From assembly GCF_900109735.1 (NCBI RefSeq), contig NZ_FOAS01000006.1:124001-188000 (forward strand): a stretch of 64,000 bases of DNA, read 5' to 3'. Origin of the DNA: Atopomonas hussainii. Its GTDB lineage: Bacteria > Pseudomonadota > Gammaproteobacteria > Pseudomonadales > Pseudomonadaceae. Under the pieces are notes generated by a model that did no database searches, was not told the DNA's origin, and was given only the letters and a program-made list of their open reading frames with translations. The translations under genes and the position numbers were made by a program. Position 1 is the stretch's first letter. The number at the start of each line of letters is the position of its first letter. This document shows, piece by piece, positions 7,589 through 11,198 of this stretch.

Positions 7589-7606
7589 AAAAACCACCCT
7601 AACCCC

Positions 7607-7634
7607 TTGTGCGCTATTACTTTTTCTGTAAAAT
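7607..7634 (+). promoter_or_regulatory. Promoter of the tRNA-Pro gene
   Basis: TTGTGC at 7607-7612 and TAAAAT at 7629-7634 are separated by 16 bp. They are followed by a GC-rich discriminator (GCGCGC) just ahead of the tRNA, the pattern expected for a stringently controlled sigma-70 stable-RNA promoter. Confidence 0.6.
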
Positions 7635-7647
7635 GCGCGCACACAAA

Positions 7648-7724
7648 CGGAGTGTAGCGCAGCCTGGTAGCGCGTCTCGTTCGGGACGAGAAGGTCGCTG
7701 GTTCGATTCCAGTCACTCCGACCA
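7648..7724 (+). tRNA. tRNA-Pro (anticodon CGG)
   Basis: This 77-base gene folds as a cloverleaf. The acceptor stem is CGGAGTG pairing with CACTCCG, followed by the discriminator A and an encoded CCA. The D arm contains GCGCAGCCTGGTAGCGC, and the T arm is CTGGTTCGATTCCAG. The anticodon stem TCTCG/CGAGA holds the loop TTCGGGA, giving anticodon CGG, which reads the CCG proline codon. The sequence closely resembles E. coli proK. It is transcribed alone, with its own promoter and a terminator directly downstream. Confidence 0.97.
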
Positions 7725-7730
7725 TATTGA

Positions 7731-7759
7731 AAAACCCGCTTCTTAGAAGCGGGTTTTTT
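7731..7759 (+). terminator. Rho-independent terminator of tRNA-Pro
   Basis: A 12-bp perfect stem (AAAACCCGCTTC pairing with GAAGCGGGTTTT, loop TTA) is followed by a T-run, starting seven bases after the tRNA. Confidence 0.9.
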
Positions 7760-7801
7760 ATTGCCTAAATTTTAGCTTTCGACGGCACTCGCACAGAAAA
7801 A

Positions 7802-7830
7802 AGCCTGACGCCAACAAGCAACGTCAGGCT
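7802..7830 (-). terminator. Terminator downstream of sppA and the structured element
   Basis: AGCCTGACG pairs with CGTCAGGCT (9 bp, 11-base loop). On the minus strand the stem runs straight into six T residues, a strong terminator. On the plus strand the T-run is interrupted, so it may work weakly there too. It marks the likely 3' end of minus-strand transcripts that cross the inverted-repeat element. Confidence 0.75.
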
Positions 7831-7854
7831 GTTCTTTTTAAGCTGTTATAAAAG

Positions 7855-7985
7855 CGCTGATTTAATCGTCGAACGATTCAAGCACAAGGCGTACGGAGCA
7901 CAGCAACTGAGGCATACCACCTGGTAGACGAGGTTGCAAGCACTGCACAACACAGTGATTGGACCGTGCAGGCATTAAATCAGCG
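7855..7985 (-). ncRNA. Structured 131-bp inverted-repeat element: candidate small RNA or 3'-UTR element
   Basis: The ends are a perfect 12-bp inverted repeat, CGCTGATTTAAT at 7855-7866 and ATTAAATCAGCG at 7974-7985. Nested inside are more perfect helices: AATCGT/ACGATT around CGA, TACCA/TGGTA around CC, CACTG/CAGTG, and GCAAC/GTTGC enclosing one of these. Together they describe a multi-branched fold closed by a long stem. No plausible reading frame is present. On the minus strand it lies just after the sppA stop and just before a strong terminator, which favours a minus-strand RNA. The alternative is a miniature transposable element whose ends are the inverted repeat. I do not recognise a known RNA family. 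Confidence 0.4.
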
Positions 7986-8003
7986 TTTCCTTAGGGTGAC
8001 GAT

Positions 8004-9005
8004 TTAGCGTAAGGCAGGCGCTGCCCCATTAACACCCATCCACATCGCCAGATGCTCAGCCACGCTGGCACCTAAGCGTTTGGCGAAACGGTCAAACGGG
8101 GTTTCCTGCGGGGTGAAGTCGACGATGTTTTCTTCGCCAATCACTTCGCGCGCCACATAACTGGTGCCACCGAACTTATCGATTAAGCCCAGCTCTAAGG
8201 CTTGCTCGCCCGACCACACTAAACCTGAGAACAGCTCAGGATGCTCGTCGGCTTTCAAGCGCTCGCCACGGCCCTTCTTCACGCTGGCAATAAATTGCTG
8301 ATGGGTGGTTTTCAGCACACTTTGCCAGAACTCGGTTTCGCTGTCTTTTTGCGGCTGGAACGGATCCAAGAAGGCCTTGTGCTCGCCCGAGGTGTACACG
8401 CGGCGCTCAACACCGACCTTGCCCATCGCCTCGACAAAGCCAAAGCTGGCCGCGGTCACGCCAATGGAGCCCACCAAGCTGGCCTTGTCGGCATAAATCT
8501 CATCCGCCGCACTGGCAATGTAATAAGCCCCGGAGGCGCCTAGGTCGGTAATTACTGCGTAAACCTTGATATCCGGGTGTTTTTCGCGCAGGCGCAAAAT
8601 CTCATCAAACACATAACCGGACTGCACAGGACTACCACCGGGGCTATTGATGCGCAACACCACGCCTTTGGTGTTTTCATCCTCAAAGGCCGCGCGCAGG
8701 CCGCCAATAATATTGTCGGCGCTGGCCTCTTCCTGATCGGCGATCATGCCGCGCACTTCAATCACTGCCGTGTGCGGACCGGTTTTTGCCGAGCCGCCTT
8801 TAAGCCCCGCCATCGGCGAAAACAGCGCAATCGCGATGAACAAATAGGCGAAGGTCAAAAACTTAAAGAAAATGCCCCAGCGGCGCGCGCGCTTTTGCTC
8901 TTGCAAGCCCGCTAAAGCGACTTTTTCCAACAGCTGCCAAGCCTTGCCGTCATCCTTTGCGCCTGAGCTGCGGTTGGGCTGCTCATTCCATTCATCAGAG
9001 TGCAT
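8004..9005 (-). CDS. sppA: Signal peptide peptidase SppA (S49 protease)
   Basis: This membrane-bound serine protease degrades cleaved signal peptides. It is the short (333-residue) type with one transmembrane segment at about 44-63 near the N-terminus and the active site outside. The Ser/Lys dyad is visible: Ser at about 158 in LGASGAYYIAS and Lys at about 210 in YTSGEHKAFLDP, with the SLVGSIGV motif between them. The true start is ATG 9005 (MHSDEWNEQ); an upstream in-frame extension only overlaps the previous gene. It overlaps the HAD phosphatase gene by 11 bp, so the two are translationally coupled. The order rluC-HAD-sppA is conserved in Pseudomonas, as I recall. Confidence 0.93.
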   Translation of the reverse strand: MHSDEWNEQPNRSSGAKDDGKAWQLLEKVALAGLQEQKRARRWGIFFKFLTFAYLFIAIALFSPMAGLKGGSAKTGPHTAVIEVRGMIADQEEASADNIIGGLRAAFEDENTKGVVLRINSPGGSPVQSGYVFDEILRLREKHPDIKVYAVITDLGASGAYYIASAADEIYADKASLVGSIGVTAASFGFVEAMGKVGVERRVYTSGEHKAFLDPFQPQKDSETEFWQSVLKTTHQQFIASVKKGRGERLKADEHPELFSGLVWSGEQALELGLIDKFGGTSYVAREVIGEENIVDFTPQETPFDRFAKRLGASVAEHLAMWMGVNGAAPALR

Positions 9006-10642: not shown

Positions 10643-11198
10643 CGCGGCATGATACTTTTTTCTTGTAATTGAAGCACTTCCTATTAGCTGCTAAGCTGCC
10701 GGCACCCGCCAAAAGTGGGCATCCGCAGGTTTTGCACGGCAGTATTGATTGCCGCTCGTTTCAACCCGCGACGAAACACAGGGTCGTGGCTTCGATCCGC
10801 AGGAAAGCCGGCAACTGCCGAGATACCCGCTACCCAAGCCCCCAAAAGTAATGAAAAGCGCGCAGGTTTAACCTGCGATTGTTAACCGCTCCAATAAACC
10901 GTGAGTGGCACCCGATTCTCCAGGGTTTCGTGCAGGTGGAGATGCACAGCTGGCCTTTGCGTAGCACTCAAGCGTTGACGACGTGAGTTACTCCGTCCCG
11001 CTGGCCCGCTGATTCCTCCCCCTGACTGAGTGCTTCTGTACTGATTGATTTACAGAGAATCAGGAACGTAAGTCGCCGCAGCATTAAACGCGGCACGACA
11101 AAACGAGCAGCCTAGGCTGCTCTACGGCCTGACACGCGACCGTAAGGATCGTGTGTGCCGTCGCGGTTTCCGTGAGCCCGGAAACCTAACGGTAACGC
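10643..11198. promoter_or_regulatory. rluC/rne intergenic region with long structured rne leader
   Basis: This 556-bp stretch contains no credible gene. It holds the divergent promoters and what must be a long rne 5' leader. Several hairpins are visible close to rne: GCAGGTT/AACCTGC near 10862, GAGCAGCC/GGCTGCTC at 11106-11123 and GGTTTCC/GGAAACC at about 11165-11186. In Pseudomonadaceae a conserved RNA structure in the rne leader (the rne-II motif) has been described, and RNase E is known to regulate its own mRNA through its leader. That this sequence is an rne-II example is inferred from position, because I cannot run the covariance model. Confidence 0.6.

Follow-up and report, generated by a model that had tools for sequence, protein, structure and literature searches.

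A miniature transposable element downstream of sppA in Atopomonas hussainii that appears to belong to a superfamily including ERIC

The element located just behind sppA in Atopomonas hussainii is a MITE, a non-autonomous transposable element, since its copies are dispersed and its ends and YTAR target are near-identical to those of a resident IS5-family insertion sequence (IS). Judged by covariance models, it appears to be a MITE of a superfamily that includes ERIC. That the element is a MITE is ordinary; less ordinary are the tie between ERIC and a family found across a phylum sample, the differing ends, the conserved core and the directional placement behind genes.

The element downstream of sppA and its copies

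The DNA analyzed, referred to here as the window, is a 64,000-nucleotide stretch of contig NZ_FOAS01000006.1 (positions 124,001 to 188,000). The features that bear on the element are as follows, in window coordinates.

7802..7830, minus strand: intrinsic-terminator-like hairpin, downstream of sppA and of the element
7846..7849: left flank TTAT, likely a decayed target duplication, with 3 of 4 letters matching the right flank
7850..7990, plus strand (the orientation used throughout): the element, one copy of a dispersed 141-bp repeat
7850..7866, plus strand: left terminal inverted repeat AAAAGCGCTGATTTAAT, with 2 differences from GGAARCGCTGATTTAAT
7870..7971, plus strand: structured core of about 102 nt, conserved across genomes
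7974..7990, minus strand: right terminal inverted repeat GGAAACGCTGATTTAAT, identical to both resident IS ends over the first 15 nt
7991..7994: right flank TTAG (YTAR)
8004..9005, minus strand: sppA (Peptidase_S49, SppA_dom), ending in a stop codon at 8004-8006, with 13 nt between it and the element's right end

An earlier note, made from the sequence alone, had placed a structured stretch between the sppA stop and a minus-strand terminator, and this arrangement was confirmed, as sppA lies on the minus strand and its stop is followed on that strand by 13 nt, the element and then the terminator-like hairpin at 7830-7802. The perfect 12-bp inverted repeat reported there (CGCTGATTTAAT, at 7855-7866 and 7974-7985) is present. 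It was extended by the repeat finder to 34 nt at 74% complementarity, and the extended repeat ranks second among the 25 longest of the 35 inverted repeats in the window having arms no more than 150 bp apart. The structure assigned to 7855-7985 is therefore real, but its limits were drawn too narrowly, as the element spans 7850-7990 (141 bp). More structure than in random DNA had also been claimed, and this is supported by the plus-strand fold of 7840-8000 (−52 kcal/mol, z −3.46), which was equaled by 0 of 200 shuffles; the minus-strand fold of the same stretch was weaker (z −1.66, with 10 of 200 shuffles as good). The description of the structure as multi-branched was not upheld. The consensus fold of the covariance model built from copies in this genome (R1) has zero branch points and forms one long imperfect hairpin, a rod interrupted by internal loops. 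The statement that the stretch holds no reading frame is correct for frames of 40 aa or more but not for shorter ones, since three frames on the minus strand (35, 37, and 21 aa) overlap the element.

Only one copy of the element was found in the window, and the option of a miniature transposable element, which many dispersed copies in the host genome were expected to favor, was borne out by the rest of the genome. A BLAST search of the genome against itself gave at least 40 long matches at 80 to 100% identity (40 of the 110 first-look candidates were scored). Model R1 was built from 29 own-genome copies (alignment A3, comprising 29 of the first 30 copies, with L021 left out), and it gave at least 93 matches, corresponding to 65 near-full-length sites, 6 short sites and 22 opposite-strand second hits; these counts are lower bounds, with 150 of 2343 candidates scored. 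The six short sites (67 to 93 bp; C39:1786-1878, C15:136071-136153, C32:6438-6520, C22:46930-46996, C21:102428-102510, and C24:34736-34807) may be derivatives that have lost internal sequence but kept the same ends.

The ends of the copies were found to be GGAARCGCTGATTTAAT. The flanking 4-mers of the best 30 copies agree best at offset 0, where 66 of 120 letters match compared with 21 to 44 elsewhere, and the same offset is best for all 65 copies (108 of 260 letters, compared with 58 to 92 at other offsets). YTAR was observed at 27 of 65 right ends and 12 of 65 left ends, the target duplications having decayed in most copies. Among the 35 copies of consensus length, the identity to the consensus ranges down to 0.64 (to 0.96 at best, median 0.91), and many copies therefore look old.

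The resident IS was deduced from its fragments. All 16 DDE_Tnp_1 matches in the genome are partial and lie at contig ends, which indicates that a repeated IS broke the assembly there. An N-terminal piece of the IS protein matches DUF772 and a C-terminal piece matches DDE_Tnp_1, both above the Pfam cutoffs, and both pieces match the NCBIfam IS5 model at scores below its whole-protein cutoff. Both ends of the IS are GGAAACGCTGATTTATT, a near-match to the element ends; of the 40 IS ends fetched, 35 are flanked by YTAR. As in the MITEs of the IS5 family, the element is short and devoid of a transposase gene (its longest frames being 35 and 37 aa), and it shares its terminal repeats and YTAR target with the resident IS. 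It differs from them in that its interior is not a deleted IS and in that its core is also found with other ends; further inward than the terminal repeats, the element and the IS share short words only (about 360 nt of the IS compared per end). From the sequences of the two, the element is probably moved in trans by the resident IS5-family transposase. A high-copy IS5-family IS was present at most of the contig ends examined, and because its YTAR flanks are better kept than those of the MITE, it looks to have been recently active.

The core and ends of the family in other genomes

A DNA search of the genome and 56 relatives gave matches in the genome itself only, and no match was found in the phages searched. 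Among the plasmids searched, a single record matched, a Nitrosomonas plasmid at 73.8% over 99% of the length; the other named carriers were Modicisalibacter and Halomonas (4 records). The covariance models reached further. With 8 candidates scored per genome, R1 detected the repeat in at least 38 of the 390 genomes searched within the order. A model restricted to the core (R2) was built from 40 chosen copies (alignment A5), of which 36 were taken from the 52 matches of one family search and 4 from the own genome. Left out of A5 were the opposite-strand hit of the window, L156, the copies with an inserted hairpin (L065, L066, L133, L134, and L145), and nine near-duplicates (L120, L121, L123, L125, L135, L143, both L150 matches, and one of three at L155). 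In the class sample, R2 found the core in at least 98 of 369 genomes and at least 77 of 272 genera (up to 10 candidates scored in each genome), and in the phylum sample it did so in at least 58 of 299 genomes (13 candidates scored in each).

The best locus was compared from each of 29 genomes of the class, and these loci have similar cores but different ends. The recurring end types are GGAAAC/GCTGAA..AAA; CAGG..TTGAAAAACG beside CTAG; GAG.TTGTGAAGAAATCG; and GAGCCTGTTCA.GATCTCGA. The core of the family is thus constant while the terminal repeats differ. We hypothesized that the ends are acquired to match the transposase of a given genome, and this is supported in the own genome; no partner IS with matching ends was found from frames and terminal repeats among 12 loci of genome G227 and 4 of G746. 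In G227, inverted ends like those of the Atopomonas elements were also observed at C2:176209-176482 and C2:313081-313302, where they enclose about 274 and 222 bp, more than the usual element length. Core copies 0.2 to 0.4 kb apart and in the same orientation were noted in G229 (L147), G208 (L150), and G163 (L151), and text resembling the start of a tRNA gene, as judged by eye, follows some of these clustered copies. Because a few weak matches are clustered, integron attC sites, which have recombination boxes and an integrase, and GTAG-tagged REP hairpins with a RAYT were entertained as candidate readings. At L155 (G052:C11:150800-151700), three cores lie in near-adjacent tandem (266-392, 398-501, and 525-616).

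The earlier note had proposed that compensatory changes be sought in the stems, and the stems were found to co-vary between genomes. In alignment A6 (29 genomes), 86.8% of cells pair compared with 61.2% after shuffling, 155 cells are compensatory compared with 53, and covariation is 0.653 compared with 0.203 in shuffles and at most 0.122 in slid controls, although alignment by the covariance model favors the structure in this case. In the 40 copies of A5, which were aligned by MAFFT and given a structure taken partly from their own consensus and partly chosen by hand, 87.7% of cells pair compared with 65.1% after shuffling, and covariation is 0.604 compared with 0.200; the relatedness of the sequences inflates all of these shuffle contrasts. 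The copies of the own genome gave a smaller signal (0.184 compared with 0.125). Since the stems co-vary between genomes, MITE and conserved structure are both true of the element.

Relationship to ERIC, sX9 and other small repeats

The likeness of this family to ERIC was tested with covariance models, whose E-values are described as rough by the tool itself. Against E. coli ERIC, R1 matched over model positions 1-141 with 16.9 bits (E 2e-4 in 644 bases) and R2 with 12.2 bits (E 0.006). When ten ERIC loci were searched, R2 hit the ERIC in the correct orientation at six of them (E 7e-5, 1e-4, 0.03, 0.07, 0.2, and 0.5), matched one solely on the wrong strand, and gave no match up to E 2 at three, while R1 gave E below 0.2 in five. 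The comparison was also made in the opposite direction with R3, a model built from nine ERIC copies (alignment A7, 9 of the 10 loci, with L198 left out). On the 29 family loci (85 kb), R3 gave 27 matches at E of 10 or less. Of these, 17 hit the core in the family orientation and 5 hit it in the reverse one, the remaining 5 lying outside it; the best three scored 42.6, 37.0, and 31.9 bits, with E-values between 1.5e-8 and 9e-6, compared with 15.5 bits for the best match outside a core. On 26 other loci (57 kb), 19 of its 30 matches were at the core on the family strand and 11 were elsewhere, and the 7 best were all cores. Sequence-only profiles compared between the family and ERIC gave no core match above the best of the shuffles. 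A DNA search with ERIC of the 369 class genomes identified one genome with two ERIC-like loci, and the best match of R1 on these loci fell at one of the two ERIC-like places (E 0.23).

It was concluded from the two-way model matches, which are weak or absent at some loci, that the family and ERIC share a structured core, most simply by common descent. ERIC, also termed IRU or RU-1, further resembles the element in its size class, its long imperfect hairpin and its many intergenic copies. ERIC was described in 1990-1991 (PMC10969869, PMC2229807) and is reported to have 7-bp terminal repeats with TA at the termini (PMC2229807), unlike the Atopomonas element with its 17-bp repeats and YTAR flanks. 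Because the ends and the target differ, the element is not called an ERIC but was filed in the same superfamily. The hosts differ as well, as the reported range of ERIC is Enterobacteriaceae and Vibrionaceae (PMC10969869), and the carriers of the present family include Atopomonas, Halomonas, and Modicisalibacter. No account of such an extension of ERIC was recognized among the papers listed by searches of an open-access library.

The earlier statement that no matching RNA family is known stands insofar as the only Rfam matches in the window at the gathering threshold are one tRNA and rne-II, and the element copy has none; it does not extend to the relatives of the element, which show subthreshold matches to sX9 (RF02228) on the opposite strand. 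The rne-II cis-regulatory RNA (RF01756) lies at 10926-11188 of the window on the plus strand (111.4 bits, above threshold). Opposite-strand matches to the 76-nt sX9 model were obtained for 7 copies (5 of 20 loci in one search and 2 of 20 in another), with a best score of 39.2 bits among the relatives compared with the gathering threshold of 44 bits. sX9 differs from the element in being annotated as a Xanthomonas sRNA rather than as a mobile repeat, and it is listed in a review among the most abundant sRNA annotations (PMC9029176). In our view, sX9 probably represents part of the repeat described here. The Correia/NEMIS and RUP repeats are likewise small hairpin MITEs near genes, with reported RNA effects or IS-linked mobility (PMC2229807, PMC10969869), and are set apart by their descriptions, having other hosts and ends.

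Orientation behind genes and the proposed explanation

The genes beside the copies were called with a home-made ORF finder based on codon scores or length scores. In the orientation of the window, 50 of 65 copies have a gene at their right end that points toward the element. For 43 of 65 copies, the stop codon of this gene falls between −20 and +5 relative to the right end, and for 20 it coincides with that end, compared with 2 of 65 (none exact) at the left end and 1 of 40 (none exact, no gene being called at two) at the IS ends; the Fisher p values for the right end were 3e-15 against the left end and 7e-12 against the IS ends. The window copy, at +13 from the sppA stop, is outside the 43.

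Part of this pattern follows from the target. Stop codons make up 27 of the 101 YTAR sites in the window that are not wholly inside a gene, and the 20 exact dockings among 65 copies are therefore what the target predicts (p 0.6). The IS ends dock exactly less often than this expectation (0 of 40, p 0.005) and are thus an imperfect control. What goes beyond the target-site expectation is the direction alone (43 versus 2). As read from the sequence, identical stop codons occur in the two terminal repeats, and these stops are accordingly not the source of the direction bias. So strong an orientation bias suggests that one strand alone is well tolerated or useful behind a gene.

Outside the Atopomonas genome, the direction bias is weaker. 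A stop within 30 nt of the core end was found on the right and left, respectively, at 8 and 2 of 30 loci in G227, 9 and 4 of 10 in G746, 6 and 3 of 10 in G691, and 11 and 8 of 29 mixed loci. Pooling them after removal of two doubly counted loci left 77 loci, with such a stop on the right in 33 cases and on the left in 17 (Fisher p 0.009, binomial p 0.03).

These data were weighed for a plain IS5-type MITE with no host role, in which the position would reflect the loss of insertions inside genes and the structure would be inherited baggage. The match of the ends and target to the resident IS, the agreement of exact docking with the stop share of nongenic YTAR sites, and the degraded state of many copies are all in keeping with it. 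It does not lead one to expect the 43-to-2 direction for near-symmetric ends with the same stop codons, nor compensatory changes that keep the core across many genomes, and we consider it credible but rather unlikely.

We propose, with moderate and evenly divided confidence, a MITE of the ERIC-containing superfamily that is moved by an IS5-type transposase and retained as a strand-specific 3'-UTR hairpin. The resident IS5-family transposase would move the element in trans into YTAR sites, and upon insertion at a YTAR that holds a stop codon, the target duplication would keep the stop and leave the gene intact. The hairpin would thereby form the start of the 3' UTR of the upstream gene. Ribosomes terminating at the stop would open the foot of the hairpin, and the opened foot together with the structured core may alter the processing or protection of the transcript 3' end. 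Yersinia ERIC is reported to be co-transcribed, with upstream transcripts being less stable and orientation being crucial, and ribosomes are proposed to induce a change that makes an RNase E site accessible (PMC2229807, citing De Gregorio 2005). It is the stop codon at the hairpin foot, taken with these reports, that makes a strand-specific 3'-UTR effect the best reading, although both the transcription of the element and any effect on mRNA are presumed from the present analysis. The 3'-UTR idea of the earlier note thus survives, the window copy lying between the sppA stop and the terminator and the copies lying at stop codons in one direction.

The wobble pairs of the core argue against the 3'-UTR reading, as those in the own genome favor the plus strand (33 GU and 7 AC, significant in this genome only), whereas the docked genes would transcribe the minus strand. 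The 29 other genomes gave 13 GU and 11 AC with no strand preference. Near-equal numbers of this kind, and the occurrence of both orientations behind genes elsewhere, could be explained if the core acted on either strand as a DNA hairpin or cruciform (a protein-binding or replication structure) and not as RNA. This was deemed improbable given the strong direction bias relative to genes in the Atopomonas genome, and the ERIC effects reported so far concern mRNA (PMC2229807). An independent small RNA gene transcribed from a promoter of its own would account for the covariation of the core and for the opposite-strand likeness to sX9, an annotated sRNA, but is very improbable for an element with at least 65 dispersed copies bearing terminal repeats and with no sigma-70-like promoter found in 7600-8100 by a simple consensus scan.

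With the strand-specific 3'-UTR hairpin as the preferred explanation for the element, a wider and more doubtful proposal is made tentatively for the family. ERIC may be the enterobacterial branch of phylum-wide hairpin modules that acquire their ends from resident DDE transposases and are kept behind stop codons owing to the influence of one RNA strand on the fate of the upstream transcript, the core being the unit of inheritance. Conservation would then apply to a structured module and not to the ends recognized by a transposase. Such a family could also explain the wide annotation of sX9 as an sRNA and, its ends being recognizable, would make both the mobility of ERIC and its effect on mRNA directly testable.
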